A stretch of 64,000 nt of DNA from Hyphomonadaceae bacterium. Its GTDB lineage: Bacteria > Pseudomonadota > Alphaproteobacteria > Caulobacterales > Aquidulcibacteraceae. The translations under genes were made by a program, and so were the position numbers. Shown piece by piece: positions 3,392 to 49,712 of the stretch. Each line of letters begins with the position of its first letter. The stretch's first letter is position 1. The DNA lies in the NCBI GenBank assembly GCA_022841905.1, contig JALHQO010000001.1, positions 477,568-541,567 on the forward strand, read 5' to 3'. The notes below the pieces were generated by a model that did no database searches, was not told where the DNA came from, and worked only from the letters and a program-made list of their open reading frames with translations.

Positions 3392-3864
3392 TGGCCAAGA
3401 AATCCGATCCCAACAACAAGCTGATCGCGGAAAACCGTCGGGCACGCTTCGATTACGCGATCGAGGATACACTCGAGGCGGGCATCCAGCTGCTTGGCAC
3501 CGAGGTGAAATCGCTGCGCTCGGGGCGGGCCAATATCGCCGAGAGCTACGCCCATACCGAGAAGGGCGAGCTTTGGCTGATCAACGCGACGATCCCTGAG
3601 TATCCGCCGGCTGGTCAGTTCAACCATGAGCCACGACGGAGGCGTAAGCTCTTGGTGCGGGGTCGTGAGTTGAAGCGACTGATGGGCGCCGTTGAGCGCG
3701 AAGGCCGCACGCTCGCGCCGCTCAAGCTCTATTTCAACGATCGCGGCATCGCGAAGGTTCAGATCGCGCTCGCCAAGGGCAAGAAGGCGCATGACAAGCG
3801 CGCCGCCACCAAAGACCGAGAGTGGAAGCGCCAGCAATCGCGCCTGATGAAGGATCGCGGCTGA
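3391..3864 (+). CDS. smpB: SsrA-binding protein SmpB
   Basis: Binds tmRNA and brings it to stalled ribosomes in trans-translation. The 157-residue sequence shows the standard elements: '[11 protein letters not shown]', '[12 protein letters not shown]', 'LKRLMGA', '[18 protein letters not shown]' and a basic C-terminal tail ending 'RLMKDRG'. It sits between dapA and a TPR lipoprotein, with one-base stop/start overlaps on both sides (3391 and 3864). I did not find the tmRNA gene itself in this window. Confidence 0.96.
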
Positions 3865-21784: not shown

Positions 21785-22282
21785 ATGGACGAGACGCCCG
21801 AACAACTCTTTCGCCGCACCATGGGCGCGTTCGCGACGGGCGTGACCGTGGTGTCGGCGGCGGGCGCAGGCGGGCGCATGGCGGGCATCACCGTCAACTC
21901 GCTGACCTCGGTCTCGCTAAAGCCCCGACTTTTGTTGTGGTGTTTAGGCTACGAGTCCGCGCGCTACGATTTCTTCGCGGCGGCCGAGACGTGGGGCGTT
22001 ACCGTGCTCGGCGCGGATGATGAGGCGGCAGCGCGGCGGTTCGCGCGCGCTGAAACCGAGGCGATCGAGCTGGGCGAAGCGGCGACGTTCGCTGGCGCGC
22101 CGGTGCTGCAAATGGGGGTGGCGCATGTCGCGTGCCGCACGCACGATAGGCACGCAGCTGGCGACCATCTCATTATCATTGGTGAAGTGCTTGATCTCAG
22201 GGTCAAGCCGGGCGCGGTGCTGACATTTCTGCGCGGGCTCTATGGTGAGGCCGCCGATCCGAGAGAGAAATCTGGGAGCTAA
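21785..22282 (+). CDS. Flavin reductase domain protein
   Basis: A 165-residue FMN-binding split-barrel protein of the flavin reductase family. Visible motifs are 'RRTMGAFATGVTVVSA', 'AGITVNSLTSVSLKPRLLLWCL', 'FFAAAETWGVTVLGADDEAAARRFA' and the late histidine in 'DHLIIIGEVLDL'. Such proteins supply reduced flavin to a partner monooxygenase or act alone on small substrates; no partner is next to it. The start is ATG 21785, although the frame is open far upstream over motB. The following dehydrogenase begins six bases after its stop. Confidence 0.88.
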   Translation: MDETPEQLFRRTMGAFATGVTVVSAAGAGGRMAGITVNSLTSVSLKPRLLLWCLGYESARYDFFAAAETWGVTVLGADDEAAARRFARAETEAIELGEAATFAGAPVLQMGVAHVACRTHDRHAAGDHLIIIGEVLDLRVKPGAVLTFLRGLYGEAADPREKSGS

Positions 22283-42956: not shown

Positions 42957-43385
42957 ATGAAGCGATTGATTGCTGCGATGAGCGTGCTTGGGCTGGCGGC
43001 GTGCGCGACGGGGCCAGAAGCGCCGGCCGACTTTGATCCGACCGCCTGCTATGAGCGCTCGTTCAACCTCTATTTTGAGCCGCAAGAGGCCGATCTCAAC
43101 CCCGCCGCACGCGAAGCAATCAGCACGGTTCAAAACGAACTGCGCGGCTGCCGCATCGATGGCGTGCGCGTTCTCGGACTCGCGGAAGCGGCTGGCGCCA
43201 CGGCTGAGAATTTCGAACTCTCTCGTCAGCGGGCGCTTCGGATCGAGGATTTCATGGAACTCGATCCAGCTTGGCGCGACAAGATCGAGACGCTGGCCGC
43301 CGGTGAAGCAGGCGCGGTCACCGAGGAAGGCCCGAGGCCCATGCGTCGGGTGGCGCGGATCACGGTGCGCGCGAGCGCTCCGTAA
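42957..43385 (+). CDS. OmpA-like lipoprotein
   Basis: A 142-residue lipoprotein: signal 'MKRLIAAMSVLGLAACATG' with lipobox Cys16, then a compact OmpA-type domain ('SFNLYFEPQEADLNPAAREAISTVQNELRGCRIDGVRVLGLAEAAG', 'NFELSRQRALRIEDFM'). The Asp and Arg that bind diaminopimelate are only partly recognisable, so peptidoglycan binding is uncertain. It follows ihfA by 29 bases. Confidence 0.75.
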   Translation: MKRLIAAMSVLGLAACATGPEAPADFDPTACYERSFNLYFEPQEADLNPAAREAISTVQNELRGCRIDGVRVLGLAEAAGATAENFELSRQRALRIEDFMELDPAWRDKIETLAAGEAGAVTEEGPRPMRRVARITVRASAP

Positions 43386-43390
43386 GCAGG

Positions 43391-44449
43391 CTAAGCCGCA
43401 CTCGCAAACGCGCGTTGGCGGAAGCTTCGTAACTCCCACAAATCGTTGCGGGTGAGGCCGAGAGCGGCTGTGAGCGCAGCCACGGCGGCGGCGCCGAGCT
43501 CGTGTTCGCTGGCGGCGAGGCGTTGCAGCTTTTCTCGATCTGCGTCGGTGATGGCGACTGAGCCGCCCTCTTGAGCGGCGAGGATCAGCTCTTCGGCGCG
43601 TAACACCATTTCGATGTTGAGCTCGGCGTGCTGCATCAGCGCGCTGGCGCGTTGGGCCGGGAGCTTGGCGGCGAGGGCCGTCAGCGCATGGCCGGCGTCC
43701 GTGTCGGCGAAATGGCCAGCGCGGATGTCGGCCAGCAACTGGATGTGCCGCGCTTGATCGGTCTTCAGCCACTGGCGCGCGGCGCGATCGTTGCGCGCGA
43801 AAGTGAGAAACAACGTCGCCGGGATAAGCAGCAGTGTTGCCGCCATCGCCAAGAGCGGCTGGCCGCCAAGGTGATTGAAAGCGGAATGGACGACGATCGC
43901 GACGCCAAGACCTGGCAGGAAGAGCAGCGGGTTGAAGCGGTAGGTCGCGGCTGAGGCCTCTGATTGGCGCTCGGTCATTTCGTGCGAGATGATGGCGAAG
44001 AGCGCCGTGGCGCCGCCATGCATGACGGCTGTGCCGAAGCCGCGCACCAGCCAAGCGCTGACGTTCGTGTCGGGCAGCGTGAAAAGGTACCAGAGGTTCT
44101 CGATCACGGAGAAGCCGGCGCCAATGGCAAAGCCAGCGATGGCGGCGTCGAGTTTGAAGCCGATGCGGTTGTGAAAGAAGAGCCAGAGCAGTGGGGCGGC
44201 TTTCAGCGTTTCTTCCACCACTGGCGCGACGTAGCGGCTGTAATTGCCCAGGCCGATGGGAAAGCCGTCCATGACGCGCCAGTTGGCGATGAAGCTGAAG
44301 GCGGCGATGGCGCCGCCAGCCCCCAGCAGCGCCAGAATCGTGCGCATGCGGATGACGTTGAAGACGTCGAGGCGATCGAACAACATCAGTAGCAGAACGA
44401 CGGGCGACAGCGCCATCAGCGCCTTCACCAGCAGCGTGCCGTCCATCAC
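43391..44449 (-). CDS. PrsW family intramembrane metalloprotease
   Basis: A 352-residue membrane protein with about eight hydrophobic segments in residues 1-215. The PrsW/CAAX-protease-like motifs are present: the paired glutamates in 'YSRYVAPVVEETLKAAPLLWL', 'GAGFSVIEN', the His in 'VMHGGATALFAIISHEM' and 'VVHSAFNHLGG'. A soluble C-terminal part of some 130 residues ('WLKTDQARHIQLLADIRAGHFAD' onward) is helical and not part of the protease core. PrsW of Bacillus subtilis cuts an anti-sigma factor. The start overlaps the stop of the upstream exported protease-like gene (ATGA), so the two are tightly coupled. Confidence 0.88.
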   Translation of the reverse strand: MMDGTLLVKALMALSPVVLLLMLFDRLDVFNVIRMRTILALLGAGGAIAAFSFIANWRVMDGFPIGLGNYSRYVAPVVEETLKAAPLLWLFFHNRIGFKLDAAIAGFAIGAGFSVIENLWYLFTLPDTNVSAWLVRGFGTAVMHGGATALFAIISHEMTERQSEASAATYRFNPLLFLPGLGVAIVVHSAFNHLGGQPLLAMAATLLLIPATLFLTFARNDRAARQWLKTDQARHIQLLADIRAGHFADTDAGHALTALAAKLPAQRASALMQHAELNIEMVLRAEELILAAQEGGSVAITDADREKLQRLAASEHELGAAAVAALTAALGLTRNDLWELRSFRQRAFASAA

Positions 44450-47400
44450 ATGATCTTCAGGGAGATCAGCACTTCGCTGCCCTGCCTCTCGCCATCCTCG
44501 AAGCCCTCCGCGTAACCGATGGAGAACGTCATTGGCAAGCGGTGGGCGAAGGTGAAATTCCAGTCCGCCTGCACGCCGATCGATTGCAGTGAGCGGCGTT
44601 CGCCGTAAGCGGGCTCGACTTCCAGCGCGCCGACGAAAACGGCGGTGCGAAGCGAGTTGAGATAGAGGCTTGGGATGCCGACATCCTCGAAGCGAACGGG
44701 TGGCAAGTTCACCTCGGCGATGGCGCGACCAAAGCTGCGTGCGTCGATCTCGTTGATCTCGAAGCCGGGCAAGCTGTCATAGTCGCGATAGCGTTTCACT
44801 TCGCGGTCATCGACGTAATTATTGCCGAAGGCGCCGAGGTAGAAGCTGGAGAGTGGGCTGTTGCGGTCGCCGCCCGCGGCGCCGACGGCGGTGTAGAGCC
44901 AGACCGATGAATTGGGCAGCGGCAGCGGCACGCCGACATCGATGCCGGCGCGGGCGCTCGGGAAGGTTTCGCCGTTGGTGTGATCGAGCGCGCCGGCCAG
45001 CGTCCAGCGCCAGCCGCGCTCGTGATCGACGGCGCCGAGTGAACGGGTTGTGTTCGTATAGTGCAGTTCAGCGTTGAGCGAATAAAGCGTGTCGAACTGC
45101 GTCGACACTTCTTGGGCGCCGGGCAGGGTATCGAGGCCGGTATAGTAGGCCGCGTCGATGTTGAAATCGAGTTGGCGCGGCGGGTCGTAGATGAACGAGC
45201 GGCGATAGCCCACGATCAGCGCATCGCCCGCGCGCGAGCGTTCGGTGGGGCCGAAGAGATCGTAGAAGTCGGCGCCGTTGTGGCGATATTGGAAGCGCCA
45301 ACGCAGCGTCTGGTACATGAGGTCGAGGTGCCAGTCCTGGTCCTCGTAGTCGGACTCCGGCGTGTAGGAGAGCGTTGCGTGCAGTTGGTTGAACTGCAGT
45401 GGATCCTCGATCACGACGTGATAGCCGACCGCCGCTTGGCCGCGATAGCCTTCGACAATCGGATAGGCGGCGGCGAGGCGCATTTCATCGCGCGGCACAT
45501 AGCGGCCGCGTTCGGTGATCAACGCATCGAGATCGACGCGGCTGGGCGAACCCGCGGTCCAGCCGCGCACCACGGGATGGCGCTCTGCGATTTGGGCGCC
45601 GAGAAACTGCACCGTGCCGAGTGAGTCCAGCACTTGCGGCTGGATCACGGCGGGGCGGAAGCCGTCGCCAGTGAATTCGTAGACGATGAGCGAGCCGTCA
45701 GCTTGCGGGATCGGGCGGAAGAAGCCGGTGGCCGAATTGCTCATTGCTTCAACGGCTTCGGTTTCGAGATCGAAGCGGAAGATGTTGGAAACGCCGGTGT
45801 AGTACGCGCTGCCATAGAGGTAGCGGCCGTCGGGCGAGAAGACGAAGCCTTCGGGCGTCGATGTGCCGAGGCTGAATGTGTGTGTCGGCGTTGCGTTGCC
45901 GCCCATGAGATCGGCGATGTTGAAGACTTGCACGCTTTGTTCACCGCTCGCTTCGCCGACAGAGGCCGACAGCAGCGCGCCATCGGGTGAGATATCGAGA
46001 TCAAACGGCACGCGTCCGAACGGGAAGGTGACGATCTGATTCCAGCGCGTGTAAGGGTGCGGGATACGCACGAGCGTCACGAAGCCGTTCAGGTGCCTGA
46101 GCCCCCAGAGCGCGCGATCGGCGGGATTGAAGACCAGATCGCCGATGCGGGCGTCGCGCAGCAGCATTCGCTCTTCGCCGGTGGCGACATCGACCTGCAT
46201 GATGTCGCGATAGGCGTAATTGTCGGTCGTGTACCAAGCGGTGTTGGCGGCGGGGTCGTAAGCGAGCGAGGTGACGCGGTAGAGCATCGCGCCTTTGATG
46301 TCGGTGAGATGGCGGATGTCGCCGCTGCCGCGCGAGAGCACGCCGAGGTGGCCGATCACGCCTGGATAGCGGAATGCGCCGATCAGATCGCCGCTGCGTG
46401 GATCGACGAAGGTGCGCGAGACGGAGCCAAGGCCGCGGTTGGCGAGAGGCGTTACCGGCGTCAGCGGGTATTGCGAAAGCGCGGCGAGGTTTTCGCGTTG
46501 AAAATCAAACTCCCACTCGATCCAATTCCGCCAAGCCTGGTTGAGCCCTAGGCCGAACACGCGGCGGAAGTCGGAGAGATAATAGGCCTCGCTCTCCGGA
46601 TCGCGGCGCAGCCATTGGACGACGCGCTCAGGCGTGTAGGTGTTGGCCAGGTAAGAGAAGAACCGCGTGCCGTAGAGATAGTCGTTCACGCCGACTTGGA
46701 AGTCGACGAAGATGCCCTCGGATTCCAAACCGACCGGCGAATAGAAGTGCGCGTCGTCACGCACCATGGCGCGGAAGACCATTTCGTCATAGGCGCCCTG
46801 CGCACGGCCGAAGCCGCCGGCCATCCATGTTTCCATGAACACGGCGCTGCCTTCAAGATGCCAGCGCGGCACGTTCACGCGCGGCGTGGCGAGATAATTG
46901 TAGAGGATCGATAGTGGCTGCTCTTGTACCGGCATCGGCTTGCCGAAGAAGGCGCGGCGCCAAAACGCGTCGCGCTCGTTCCACACATCCATCAGCGCGA
47001 CGTGGACGACTTCGTGGTTTGATAAGGTGAAGAAGCGCTCGCCCGGGCTGAAGGTCTCGTAAGTGAGGCTCAAGGGGGCGATGTCGATCAGCATCGCGTT
47101 GTTGGGTGAAGCGCGCGCGGCGGCGTTGCCGTAGTCCGAGAAGTCCTTCAGCAGCAGCGTGACCGGATCCCACGGCTCCCAGTTGAACATGCGCTGCTGG
47201 AAATCGAGCGCGTTCTGAAAGCTGCGGCCGACGTACGGCACGAGATAGGTTTCCGACGGATCGAAATAGAGCAGCCGCATATCCTCGGTGCGGATCATGC
47301 TGAGATCGATGAGCGGCACATCTTCCGGCGCGCGGCTCGGCGGCGCGTCAGGCGCGGGCGCCTCGGGCTCGGATTGTTCGACCGGCGGATCGGTGACGAT

Positions 47401-47502
47401 CGTGCTTTCGGTCGCGGGAGCGGGCTCGTCTTGCGCGTGCGCGACGCCCGCCGAAGCGAGCGTCGCTACCGCTAACGAGAACATCAGCGCGCGCATCCCC
47501 AT
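44446..47502 (-). CDS. Exported gluzincin-like protease / beta-propeller / outer-membrane barrel protein
   Basis: 1018 residues with a signal peptide (cleavage likely after 'AHA', about residue 23) and an acidic, proline-rich linker to about 60. A metalloprotease-like domain follows, with 'NHEVVHVAL' (HExxH at 163-167) and 'RWHLEGSAVFMET', where Glu217 is in the position of the third zinc ligand of gluzincins. Residues about 360-660 look like a TolB/WD-type beta-propeller ('PFDLDISPDGALL', 'GFVFSPDGRYLYGSAYY'). The last 350 residues alternate polar and aromatic positions in long strands, as in an outer-membrane barrel. The combination is unusual. It lies 69 bases after the repeat protein gene. 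Confidence 0.75.
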   Translation of the reverse strand: MGMRALMFSLAVATLASAGVAHAQDEPAPATESTIVTDPPVEQSEPEAPAPDAPPSRAPEDVPLIDLSMIRTEDMRLLYFDPSETYLVPYVGRSFQNALDFQQRMFNWEPWDPVTLLLKDFSDYGNAAARASPNNAMLIDIAPLSLTYETFSPGERFFTLSNHEVVHVALMDVWNERDAFWRRAFFGKPMPVQEQPLSILYNYLATPRVNVPRWHLEGSAVFMETWMAGGFGRAQGAYDEMVFRAMVRDDAHFYSPVGLESEGIFVDFQVGVNDYLYGTRFFSYLANTYTPERVVQWLRRDPESEAYYLSDFRRVFGLGLNQAWRNWIEWEFDFQRENLAALSQYPLTPVTPLANRGLGSVSRTFVDPRSGDLIGAFRYPGVIGHLGVLSRGSGDIRHLTDIKGAMLYRVTSLAYDPAANTAWYTTDNYAYRDIMQVDVATGEERMLLRDARIGDLVFNPADRALWGLRHLNGFVTLVRIPHPYTRWNQIVTFPFGRVPFDLDISPDGALLSASVGEASGEQSVQVFNIADLMGGNATPTHTFSLGTSTPEGFVFSPDGRYLYGSAYYTGVSNIFRFDLETEAVEAMSNSATGFFRPIPQADGSLIVYEFTGDGFRPAVIQPQVLDSLGTVQFLGAQIAERHPVVRGWTAGSPSRVDLDALITERGRYVPRDEMRLAAAYPIVEGYRGQAAVGYHVVIEDPLQFNQLHATLSYTPESDYEDQDWHLDLMYQTLRWRFQYRHNGADFYDLFGPTERSRAGDALIVGYRRSFIYDPPRQLDFNIDAAYYTGLDTLPGAQEVSTQFDTLYSLNAELHYTNTTRSLGAVDHERGWRWTLAGALDHTNGETFPSARAGIDVGVPLPLPNSSVWLYTAVGAAGGDRNSPLSSFYLGAFGNNYVDDREVKRYRDYDSLPGFEINEIDARSFGRAIAEVNLPPVRFEDVGIPSLYLNSLRTAVFVGALEVEPAYGERRSLQSIGVQADWNFTFAHRLPMTFSIGYAEGFEDGERQGSEVLISLKIM

Positions 47503-47570
47503 GCCCCATCGCTACCACGCGCTGACTGCCCCCGAGCCTAGTCTCCCCAGGAGGGGGCGAGGCGCGTGAG

Positions 47571-49295
47571 CTAGTTCGCCTGGATCGCGCGGGCGAAGCT
47601 GGCGTCGCGCGCCATCGCAGCAAAGGCCGGCTCGCGAGCGAGGGCGGCGAAGTGCGGCGAGTTGGCGAGCGCCACGAACGCTTGCGCGTTACGCGCCAGC
47701 GCCTGCAGCGCCTGAGCGTTGCTAGCGAGTGCGGCGAACGCTTGTGGGTTTTGCGACATGGCCGCGAACGCTTGCGGATAGCGCGACATCGCTGCGAATG
47801 CCTGTGCGTTCAGACCATTGGCCGAAGCCGCGATCGCCGCCTGTGCTTGGAAGGCTTGGGCGTTGAATGCGAGCGCTTGGAAAGCGTCGGCATCGCGCGC
47901 CAGAGCCTGGAAGGCTTGGGCATTCTGATTCATCGCCGCAAACATCTGAGCGTTGTTGGCCGCCATGGCTTCGAACGCCTGCACGTCGCGGGAAAGCGCC
48001 TGGAACGCCTGAGCGTTGGACGCCAGCGCCGAAAACGCCTGGGCGTCGGCCCGCAACGCAGCGATGGCTTGAGCGTCACGGCCGAGCGCTTGGAACGCTT
48101 GGGCGTTTGCCTGCATTGCCGCTTGGTTCTGTGCATCGCGGCTGGCGGCGGCGAAAGCTTGAGCGTCGCGAGCGTAGGAGGCGAAGGCTTGAGGGTTGTT
48201 GGCCATCGCCGCAAACGCTTGCGGGTGGCGAGCCAAGGCGGCGAAGGCCTGCGGATGCTGGGCCAACGCCGCGAACGCTTGCGGATGCTGCGAGAGCGCG
48301 GCGAAGGCTTGAGCATTCTGCGCCAGCGCCAAGCCTGCGGCGGCGTTGAAGCCCTGCGCGTCGCGCGACTGAGCCGCGAACGACTGAGCGCTTTGAACGG
48401 CGGCCGCGAAGCTGCGGGCGTCTTGCGCCAGCGCCTGGAAGGCTTGTGCGTTAGCCGAGAGCGCCTGGAACGCGGCAGCGCTCTGCAACGCTGCGAACGC
48501 CTGCGCGTCGCGACCGAGCGCTTGGAACGCCTGAGCGTTTTGGTTGAGCGCCGCGAAGGCCTGCGCGTCAGCCGAGAGCGCGCTCATTGCTTGCGCGTCC
48601 CGCCCAAGCGCTTGGAACGCCTGCGCATTGGCCGACATCGCCGCCTGGTTTTGCGCATCACGCGACGCGGCGGCAAAGGCTTGCGCGTCGCGGCCGTAAG
48701 CGGCGAAGGCTTGCGGATTGTTGAGCATTGCCGCGAACGCTTGCGGATGACGAGCGAGTGCAGCGAACGCTTGTGGATGCTGCGCAAGAGCAGAGAAGGC
48801 TTGCGGATGCTGGGCGAGGGCGTTGAACGCTTGCGCGTTCTGCACCATCGCAGCAAAGGCCTGTGCATTGACGCCTTGAGCGGCGAAGGATTGCGCATCG
48901 GCCGCTTGCGCGCTCTGTACAAGTGCGGCGAACGCCTGTGGCTCGCGAGCTAGCGCTGCGAACGCCTGCGGATCCTGCGCCATGGCGGCAAGCGCTTGCG
49001 GATGTTGTGCAAGTGCTGCGAAGCCGGGCGAACTTGCGAAGGCACGGAACGACGGATCGTTGACCATCAGATCGAAGATGTCGGTCTGCATCAATTGCGG
49101 GACGGTCTGATCGCCGAGCGTGATGTCCTCTGAGCCGACCTGCGAGTCACGATAGCGATCGACTGGCGCAATCGTGCCTGACGACAAGCCGTTCGGCGGC
49201 AGGAACGTGCCCACAGCAACCGCGCTAATCGCGAGCAGAGCCAATAGTCCCGTTGCCGCGACACCCATTTTGGTCGCGTTCGATATGTCGGCCAT
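47571..49295 (-). CDS. Membrane-anchored decapeptide-repeat protein
   Basis: 574 residues. Residues 9-32 form one hydrophobic anchor; residues 35-80 are a short polar neck. From about 81 to 570 the protein is about 45 units of a 10-residue repeat with consensus [A/P]-Q-A-F-x-A-[L/M]-x-x-[D/N/H], for example PQAFAALARH and AQAFQALGRD. A nine-unit block (residues 154-243) recurs at 328-417, an internal duplication of 174 residues. Composition is dominated by Ala, Gln, Phe and Leu, with almost no Cys, Trp or Lys in the repeat. The ATG is preceded by GGAGGAGG. No known repeat family was recognised. It is the first gene of a likely operon with the exported protease-like gene and prsW. Confidence 0.85.
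   Translation of the reverse strand: MADISNATKMGVAATGLLALLAISAVAVGTFLPPNGLSSGTIAPVDRYRDSQVGSEDITLGDQTVPQLMQTDIFDLMVNDPSFRAFASSPGFAALAQHPQALAAMAQDPQAFAALAREPQAFAALVQSAQAADAQSFAAQGVNAQAFAAMVQNAQAFNALAQHPQAFSALAQHPQAFAALARHPQAFAAMLNNPQAFAAYGRDAQAFAAASRDAQNQAAMSANAQAFQALGRDAQAMSALSADAQAFAALNQNAQAFQALGRDAQAFAALQSAAAFQALSANAQAFQALAQDARSFAAAVQSAQSFAAQSRDAQGFNAAAGLALAQNAQAFAALSQHPQAFAALAQHPQAFAALARHPQAFAAMANNPQAFASYARDAQAFAAASRDAQNQAAMQANAQAFQALGRDAQAIAALRADAQAFSALASNAQAFQALSRDVQAFEAMAANNAQMFAAMNQNAQAFQALARDADAFQALAFNAQAFQAQAAIAASANGLNAQAFAAMSRYPQAFAAMSQNPQAFAALASNAQALQALARNAQAFVALANSPHFAALAREPAFAAMARDASFARAIQAN
47586..49055 (-). repeat. Coding 30-base tandem repeat array
   Basis: The DNA under the decapeptide repeat: about 45 imperfect 30-base units, all in frame. 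Two longer blocks, 48567-48836 and 48045-48314, encode near-identical runs of nine units 522 bases apart, showing that growth occurred by segmental duplication as well as by single units. The repeats keep the frame throughout, so this is a protein repeat and not a CRISPR array. Confidence 0.9.
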
Positions 49296-49335
49296 CAGCC
49301 CGACCTCCTCCGAGTTGTGGTACCGCGCGCTTGTG

Positions 49336-49364
49336 AGTAGCGGCCAAGATTACAGGCTCGTCAA
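49336..49364 (-). promoter_or_regulatory. Candidate promoter of the decapeptide-repeat operon
   Basis: On the minus strand TTGACG (49359-49364), a 17-base spacer and GCTACT (49336-49341). An AT-rich TTTTTATT lies just upstream of the -35. Transcription would start about 35 bases before the ATG at 49295, with the GGAGGAGG ribosome site between. Confidence 0.45.
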
Positions 49365-49634: not shown

Positions 49635-49712
49635 TGGTCGGAGCGGCGGGATTCGAACCCACGACCCCCTGTCCCCCAGACAGGTGCGCTAACCGGGCTG
49701 CGCCACGCTCCG
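49635..49712 (-). tRNA. tRNA-Pro (anticodon GGG)
   Basis: Read on the minus strand: acceptor CGGAGCG pairs with CGCTCCG, the D arm contains the GGTTAG loop, the anticodon stem CCTGT/ACAGG encloses the loop CTGGGGG (anticodon GGG), and the T arm is GTGGG-TTCGAAT-CCCGC (one G-G-type mismatch region at the base). The discriminator is A and the CCA end is encoded. Length is 78 bases with CCA. It decodes CCC and CCU. Confidence 0.95.

Follow-up and report, generated by a model that had tools for sequence, protein, structure and literature searches.

A rare three-gene unit of Proteobacteria comprising a repeat protein, a predicted protease-propeller-barrel fusion and a PrsW-family protease

PrsW proteases are known mainly for the cleavage of anti-sigma factors in Bacillus. 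There, RsiW has PrsW as its site-1 protease, a kind of enzyme that clips the extracytoplasmic portion of its target (PMC3498285, in the sections considered here). The parts of PMC3482391 on which we draw mention both PrsW and Omp85, with PrsW appearing mainly in toxin export, and those of PMC4104836 describe a WD40-Omp85 subfamily whose function is also unknown. We have examined a stretch of 64,000 nucleotides (hereafter, the window) from a Hyphomonadaceae bacterium (contig JALHQO010000001.1, positions 477,568 to 541,567 of the forward strand), in which a PrsW-family gene lies beside genes for a repeat protein and for a fusion protein with a predicted outer-membrane barrel. Three minus-strand open reading frames (ORFs) were found where a first-pass annotation of the sequence had placed these genes, and the spacing between G1 and G2 is 68 bases (47503-47570), as had been claimed:

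47571-49295, minus strand: G1, a membrane-anchored decapeptide-repeat protein of 574 residues (ORF list)
44446-47502, minus strand: G2, a predicted exported gluzincin-propeller-barrel protein of 1018 residues (ORF list, alignments, AlphaFold2)
43391-44446, minus strand: G3, an intramembrane protease of the PrsW family that has an additional C-terminal region, 351 residues from its ATG (ORF, Pfam, alignment)

The first-pass annotation had proposed that the three products form one cell-envelope system, and had named linkage across genera as the check. Among 101 genomes (the bacterium's own and 100 relatives), strong matches to G1, G2 and G3 were found in an identical set of 17, namely 15 of the 30 genomes in the genus and 2 in another family of the order. 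The G2 search listed 20 genomes, of which G033, G071 and G089 gave weak, propeller-only matches; contig ends split the unit in G017, G024 and G087, and adjacency there was partly seen. Across 385 genomes of the class, the bacterium's own included, profiles for G2, for G3 and for a conserved neck of G1 (described below) each matched 5 genomes, again the identical 5. The matching genome sets therefore depict a unit that is rare, patchy and all-or-none in both samples.

We also carried out a G2 search at one genome per species, in which the best 80 of 126 relatives were kept, yielding 79 distinct loci; by record titles, from which our lineage counts are taken, 22 are gammaproteobacterial, 9 betaproteobacterial and 48 alphaproteobacterial or unspecified. 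Croceicoccus ponticola and Sphingomonas edaphi, both cultured bacteria from the environment, are among the carriers of the complete set of genes. A PrsW gene, taken as a same-strand frame starting no more than 1300 bases from the G2 end, followed G2 in 74 of the 79 loci; where 500 bases or more were available downstream it did so in 71 of 73, L125 and L139 being the exceptions; in the best matches, G3 starts within 161 bases after G2. The G1 neck preceded G2, on the same strand and within 3300 bases, in 45 of 46 loci that extend 2300 bases or more upstream (L145 is the other one), a count that is partly circular because the neck profile, A5, was built mostly from those loci (40 of its 41 sequences come from the same 79). 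In L155, G1 lies about 0.8 kilobases before the G2 frame. An initial detection of the neck by a regular expression, written after examples, found it in 45 of the 79 loci, a partly different set, and missed L122, L124 and L161. Also, profile A2 was built from the G-labelled relative genomes, a set that partly overlaps with the 79 loci. Over 41 loci, the divergences of G2, G3 and the neck were correlated. In the aggregate, the three genes occur together in Alpha-, Beta- and Gammaproteobacteria, and the proposal of a single cell-envelope system is strongly supported by their same-genome occurrence, their linkage in three classes, their correlated divergence and their differing sites within the genus. 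From these comparisons of sequence we regard it as nearly certain that the three genes are a functional unit, and they are inherited together. No description of the three-gene unit was found in openly licensed PMC papers.

The assignment of G3 to the PrsW type, which had also been made in the first pass, was borne out by a Pfam match to PF13367 (57 bits vs a gathering score of 23.5, E 2.4e-15). The PrsW motifs are given as EExxK, FxxxE, H and HxxxD/N in the sections of PMC12943098 considered here; G3 carries E78E79TLK82, F112SVIE116, H143 and H187SAFN191, in which E78, E79, F112, E116, H143, H187 and N191 are invariant in 15 aligned G3 rows, and K82 is present in 14 of the 15. Against the NCBIfam equivalog for PrsW (RsiW site-1 protease), G3 scored 20.3 bits and did not reach the cut-off of 225. 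We consider G3 to be a PrsW-family protease, of predicted activity, that is not the NCBIfam equivalog.

For G2, the earlier claim of a signal peptide joined to an HExxH...E domain, a propeller and a barrel was upheld by the sequence together with an AlphaFold2 model of the whole protein (predicted local distance difference test, pLDDT, 88.1), from which the following parts were delimited:

47434-47502, minus strand: signal peptide, residues 1-23, ending AHA (by eye; A21 invariant and A23 nearly so in alignment A1)
46477-47304, minus strand: gluzincin-like domain, residues 67-342, with HExxH at 47002-47016 and E217 at 46852-46854 (alignments, model)
45631-46467, minus strand: TolB-like beta-propeller, residues 346-624 (model, structural comparison)
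44452-45513, minus strand: BamA-like barrel, residues 664-1017, with 16 strands by our own count (model)

The gluzincin signature, an HExxH with a downstream Glu ligand, is present in G2, and neither the 15 rows of A1 nor the 47 rows of alignment A4 show any change at H163, E164, H167 or E217. A BSP peptidase profile matched 1 of the 47 G2 rows (E 0.0019); the VIA list for G2 was dominated by the propeller, and the missing peptidase fold there is uninformative. In the model, the part preceding the barrel consists of a helical/beta domain and a propeller, the latter of predicted TolB fold and standing directly before the barrel, whose strands 11 and 12 are joined by a long conserved loop (residues 877-922). 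The modelled barrel agrees with the 16-strand BamA-type barrel that marks Omp85/TpsB proteins. The window's G2 had no Omp85 Pfam match at E<=0.1, and at the same threshold neither a POTRA domain in G2 nor a two-partner secretion (TPS) domain in G1 was matched. From sequence and model, then, we read G2 as a signal peptide followed by gluzincin-like, TolB-like propeller and BamA-like barrel domains.

The third product, G1, divides into a constant and a variable part:

49203-49271, minus strand: N-terminal hydrophobic anchor, residues 9-31 (by eye; helix 6-31 in a low-confidence model; alignment A5)
49056-49178, minus strand: conserved neck, residues 40-80, GTIAPVDRYRDSQ...DITLGD...MQTD (alignment A5)
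47574-49055, minus strand: repeat region with a ten-residue period and a duplication inside it at lag 174 (repeat analysis)

The ten-residue repeats noted in the first pass are real by our analysis. Identity at lag 10 over the 496-residue tail is 0.50, vs 0.188 in 1000 shuffles (standard deviation 0.015, maximum 0.235), and the larger duplication inside the protein has a lag of 174 residues. Between G1 and its counterpart in L068, substitutions at codon positions 1, 2 and 3 number 34, 14 and 232 (574 codons), a pattern from which it follows that it is the minus-strand frame that is coded, rather than the long antisense ORF. G1 is, by this evidence, a real and selected repeat protein.

The neck, which comes after the anchor and is about 40 residues long, has, in the 41 rows of A5, the consensus GTIAPAERYRxxQ....DVxLGD...LMQTDAFE; G40, T41 and D57 are invariant, and seven further columns are conserved at 90% or above. 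Beyond the constant anchor and neck, the repeat unit differs by locus and may have 4, 5, 8, 9 or 10 residues. Ten-residue units are found in alphaproteobacterial and some gammaproteobacterial loci, and nine-residue units, such as DANFRSALN, DQNFQAALG and SDAFRDAMR, in many gammaproteobacterial ones; the L140 tail is AAGN, with 38 occurrences, that of L158 is NQGTA and that of L160 is DASTGRSV. A constant neck with a variable tail is what would be expected if G2 or G3 recognises the neck and the tail is passenger or spacer. Overall, G1 is a protein with one membrane anchor, a juxtamembrane neck that is constant, and a tail of repeats.

Comparisons of G1 with known domains gave weak results. Its Pfam matches are below cut-off (XPC-binding, 16.8 bits vs a gathering score of 26.4), as is the STI1-HOP match of the L118 protein (26.0 vs 29.1 bits), and in the low-confidence model most repeats form a single helix of about 8 residues. 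A Foldseek match to beta-catenin came from that model and was not used. The only PDB sequence match of G1 (47574-49295) at E<=0.1 was to 7qlr (E 0.018; Foldseek E 4.5e-4), the receptor-binding protein of C. difficile phage CDHS-1. It has similar ten-residue repeats but, unlike G1, is a phage tail protein, and the likeness, which is weak and partly based on the low-confidence model, probably reflects convergence. We found no support for a general sorting role of the neck with many clients, since each positive genome had a single match (5 genomes, E<=1e-5). In a neck search at E<=1 in 12 genomes, the best other match (E 0.016) was the anti-sigma gene of the L118 genome, second-best there; a neck-like match on contig 7 of G000 lies in a gene read as a transhydrogenase subunit, and so was attributed to chance. 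At L145:7441-7881 (minus strand), a short lipoprotein-like protein carries the neck without repeats; its gene is divergent from G2, and a lipobox-like LGIAGC was seen by eye. This protein suggests that the neck is the essential part of G1.

In some loci the unit lies downstream of regulatory genes. SpoIIE-type phosphatase, STAS and extracytoplasmic function (ECF) sigma genes were seen before G1, on the same strand, in 14 of the 44 loci with more than 3500 bases upstream of the G2 frame, and 11 of these 14 have a separate, clustered membrane anti-sigma gene (both counts were made by reading rows of loci whose G2 frame starts beyond base 3500). None of the 14 is titled alphaproteobacterial. In L118 (3087-12042, one strand) the order is GAF-SpoIIE phosphatase, HATPase_c_2 kinase, STAS, ECF sigma, anti-sigma-like gene, G1, G2 and PrsW. 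Pfam recognised GAF-SpoIIE, HATPase_c_2, STAS and sigma-70 regions 2 and 4 in this locus and gave no match for the anti-sigma-like gene; in NCBIfam, SigW was the nearest family for the ECF protein and an anti-sigma family for the gene after it, neither score reaching its curated cut-off. In two other loci (L158:5552-7843 and L160:6779-7822) an anti-sigma-like N-terminal domain runs in frame into G1, either as a fusion or as a chance open frame. Directly beyond the membrane helix, 10 of the 11 aligned anti-sigma proteins read GT[IMV] and the eleventh reads GA. We treat the likeness between these proteins and the G1 neck, which is one of sequence, as a lead.

The signals for expression of the window's unit were read as follows:

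49304-49311, minus strand: ribosome-binding site GGAGGAGG, 8 bases before the G1 start (read from sequence)
49336-49364, minus strand: promoter-like box TTGACG-N17-GCTACT, upstream of G1 (regular expression, relatives)

The ribosome site is as clear as the first-pass annotation had claimed. Of its promoter-like site, the box itself is kept in relatives, whereas a consensus scan upstream of G1 gave no sigma-70 site. The box was matched by regular expression in 11 of 15 upstream regions, that of the window among them and that of L077 with a longer spacer; ATTGACG was seen by eye in the L070 region, and the L079, L080 and L081 regions are without the box. It is retained in relatives that have G1 at other genomic sites, where the remaining flanks are different. 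A GGAAC-type ECF promoter upstream of G1 is not supported, because there was 1 match only (L107, 155 bases before the start) in the 40 of 45 loci with a placeable start, a search that did not include the region upstream of the sigma module.

A claimed 4-base ATGA overlap of G2 and G3 proved incorrect. G2 ends in ATG TGA, and the G3 ATG sits in TGATG, with one base common to both genes; this form is present in relatives too. An in-frame GTG start for G3 would make a 4-base GTGA overlap, but the ATG is favoured because the relative L083 has TAATG there. Over the 79 loci, the junction is TGATG in 18, GTGA in 17, ATGA in 2 and of other form in 42.

Within the genus, the flanks of the unit fall into several contexts. 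The order in the window is IHF-like gene, OmpA-family gene, unit, tRNA-Pro and otsA, and among the neighbours are genes that we take to be plsX, fabH and ihfA. Two features adjoin the unit:

49635-49712: tRNA-Pro(GGG)
42957-43385: OmpA-family gene, convergent to the unit

In five relatives (G003, G004, G020, G027 and G029), an OmpA-family match stands beside an IHF-like gene, 16-101 bases from tRNA-Pro, with no unit between; an otsA match follows in G003, G020 and G027, and all five hold the unit elsewhere. The OmpA-family gene thus belongs to the locus and not to the unit, since it lies beside the IHF-like gene in relatives with the unit elsewhere. In G003, tRNA-Pro is on the strand opposite to otsA, unlike in the window, which points to a history of more than simple insertion. 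Integration at the tRNA gained no support, as no second tRNA-Pro 3' end was found in the window, and nor did carriage by plasmid or phage, as there was no G2 match in 72,556 plasmid and 50,697 phage records. Base composition at the unit is unremarkable. Elsewhere in the window (21967-22059), ARAGORN reported a tRNA-like gene of undetermined anticodon.

How the three products might work together can be proposed from these features. We favour, tentatively and at slightly less than even confidence, a scheme by analogy in which PrsW would free G1, and G2 would receive, trim and export or display it. G1 would reside in the inner membrane, its repeats lying in the periplasm, and G3 would cut it in or near the neck, as Bacillus PrsW cuts RsiW extracytoplasmically; the topology of G1, by sequence, is as in RsiW. 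G2, at the outer membrane, would bind the freed repeat chain through the neck or the repeats, its gluzincin domain might trim the chain, and the chain would be exported through the barrel or displayed on it, forming a repeat polymer at the surface or outside the cell. In some beta- and gammaproteobacterial members the same PrsW may also cut an anti-sigma factor, tying production of the unit to the state of the envelope; this shared-client idea arises because ECF sigma and membrane anti-sigma genes precede G1 there. If export is correct, polymer chemistry would vary by lineage (AAGN, NQGTA, DASTGRSV and the nine- and ten-residue units) and the machine would be constant. A bolder version, namely a new outer-membrane export class in which PrsW releases a constant-neck, variable-repeat protein, a protease-propeller-Omp85 fusion exports it and assembles a surface polymer, and a partner-switch/ECF circuit in some beta- and gammaproteobacteria employs that PrsW against its own anti-sigma factor, we consider doubtful. 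The suggestion of the first pass, that the proteases act on or sense the repeat protein, holds as far as the constant neck and the RsiW-like topology go; the action itself is still a matter of inference, and the anti-sigma genes before G1 offer an alternative PrsW client.

Several observations weigh against the release-and-export scheme. Cleavage, export and interaction of G1 are all steps that we infer. Omp85_2 matched 3 of the 47 G2 rows at E<=0.01, the best at 0.0025, and the L118 score of 15.7 bits compares with a curated 23.1. The AlphaFold2 model of G1 is poor (mean pLDDT 54.6). From the repeat-free neck protein of L145, it would appear that neither membrane helix nor repeats are strictly needed, and L125 and L139 have no G3 match despite more than 1500 bases downstream. 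Concerning a shared PrsW client, only the L118 anti-sigma protein approached the neck profile (E 0.011), the others being at E 0.43 or worse, or absent; the L122 and L109 genomes gave no anti-sigma neck match within E 1; and no sigma gene was seen beside the window's genes, in a genome not searched for one.

Other explanations use the same observations differently. TamB reaching to TamA, and TolA to TolB/Pal, are models for docking across the periplasm, and the main rival to release and export is a trans-envelope bridge, in which anchored G1 spans the periplasm and docks on G2, PrsW cuts the bridge under stress, and the length and flexibility of the repeats matter rather than their sequence. 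The single N-terminal anchor and long Ala-rich tail of G1, the TolB-like propeller and BamA-like barrel of G2, and the interchange of repeat units of 4, 5, 8, 9 or 10 residues behind a kept neck all agree with it. We nevertheless think a bridge unlikely, given that we saw no conserved C-terminal docking domain (two g18 rows are without the C-terminal block kept in the genus), that tail lengths beyond the neck range from 97 to 522 residues in the rows compared, and that L145 is without a long tail. Next in rank is a role in signal transduction: G2 would sense the outer membrane or surface, PrsW would be an anti-sigma site-1 protease, and G1 would be a decoy or competitor substrate with a shared juxtamembrane motif. 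The SpoIIE-kinase-STAS-ECF-anti-sigma genes upstream in some beta- and gammaproteobacterial loci speak for this, as do the GT[IMV] motif of the anti-sigma proteins and the precedent of RsiW cleavage by Bacillus PrsW (PMC3498285, sections considered). But the alphaproteobacterial-titled loci among the 44 keep all three genes and show no such module, an array of hundreds of residues is not obviously needed by a sensor, and the shared motif is weak, so that we rate a sensor as distinctly improbable.

We give still less weight to outer-membrane assembly or quality control, whereby G2 would resemble BamA or TamA with a fused protease, G1 would be a periplasmic holding chaperone with short, STI1-like helices for binding clients, and PrsW would recycle it. 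The BamA-like barrel, the weak XPC-binding and STI1 profile matches on the G1 repeats and the short helices predicted there would suit such a role; those matches are, however, below gathering scores, units such as AAGN (L140) and NQGTA (L158) are unlike such helices, and occurrence in 5 of 385 genomes is unfit for a general function. The chance of contact toxin delivery that depends on PrsW, an idea put forward for polymorphic toxins, seems to us slight. PrsW, a repeat protein and an outer-membrane barrel are present, and the relevant part of PMC3482391 describes toxins that have PrsW together with RHS repeats; here, PrsW is a separate gene, the G1 tails are repeats with no variable C-terminal domain seen, and by reading, in which no toxin or immunity profile search of the neighbours was included, none of the neighbour clusters listed resembled an immunity gene. 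Finally, that the three are neighbours without common function has next to no credence, being refuted, as far as sequence tells, by co-occurrence, linkage and correlated divergence over three classes.

If release and export by the unit are correct, PrsW would have in Proteobacteria both a client and an outer-membrane partner dedicated to it, a protein akin to the uncharacterised WD40-Omp85 group but bearing a protease would acquire a biological context, and the loci would offer a natural series of chemically very diverse repeat proteins, all handled by one machine. Of the described systems, the WD40-Omp85 subfamily resembles G2 in having a TolB-like propeller before an Omp85-type barrel and no POTRA detected, and differs in that G2 has an extra N-terminal gluzincin-like domain (conserved HExxH...E) and is linked to PrsW and a repeat protein; section 10 of PMC4104836 describes a separate 'Metallo' subfamily (PF00149), and within that section there is no protein with a protease domain and propeller, and there are no such partners. 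In PrsW-dependent polymorphic toxin export, as treated in part of PMC3482391, PrsW is likewise proposed to release an exported, sometimes filamentous, protein, whereas in our unit PrsW is not fused to the passenger, no toxin domain was seen and an outer-membrane partner is present.

The PrsW-RsiW-SigW system of Bacillus subtilis shares with the unit the PrsW motifs, the topology of a single-anchor client and, in some loci, ECF and anti-sigma neighbours; the unit is unlike it in that G3 falls far below the equivalog cut-off, an outer-membrane partner exists and the window's three genes have no visible sigma gene alongside. Two-partner secretion of the FhaC/FhaB type also places an Omp85-type barrel gene beside one for a long, repetitive exoprotein candidate, but in our unit there is no TPS or POTRA match, the passenger has an inner-membrane anchor and one of the three genes encodes an intramembrane protease. 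In TamA-TamB and TolA-TolB-Pal, too, an elongated protein anchored in the inner membrane has an Omp85 barrel or TolB propeller as its partner; the unit departs from both in the lack of any G1 Pfam match to either, in its dedicated protease and in its patchy distribution. As regards Tol-Pal partners, G1 has no TolA match, and the neighbouring OmpA-family gene is assigned to the locus, as described above. The parts of the unit thus come from known families, and in none of the systems that we compared are an intramembrane protease and an Omp85-type partner found together; should export prove correct, specialists may prefer to class the unit as a novel form of Omp85-dependent secretion.

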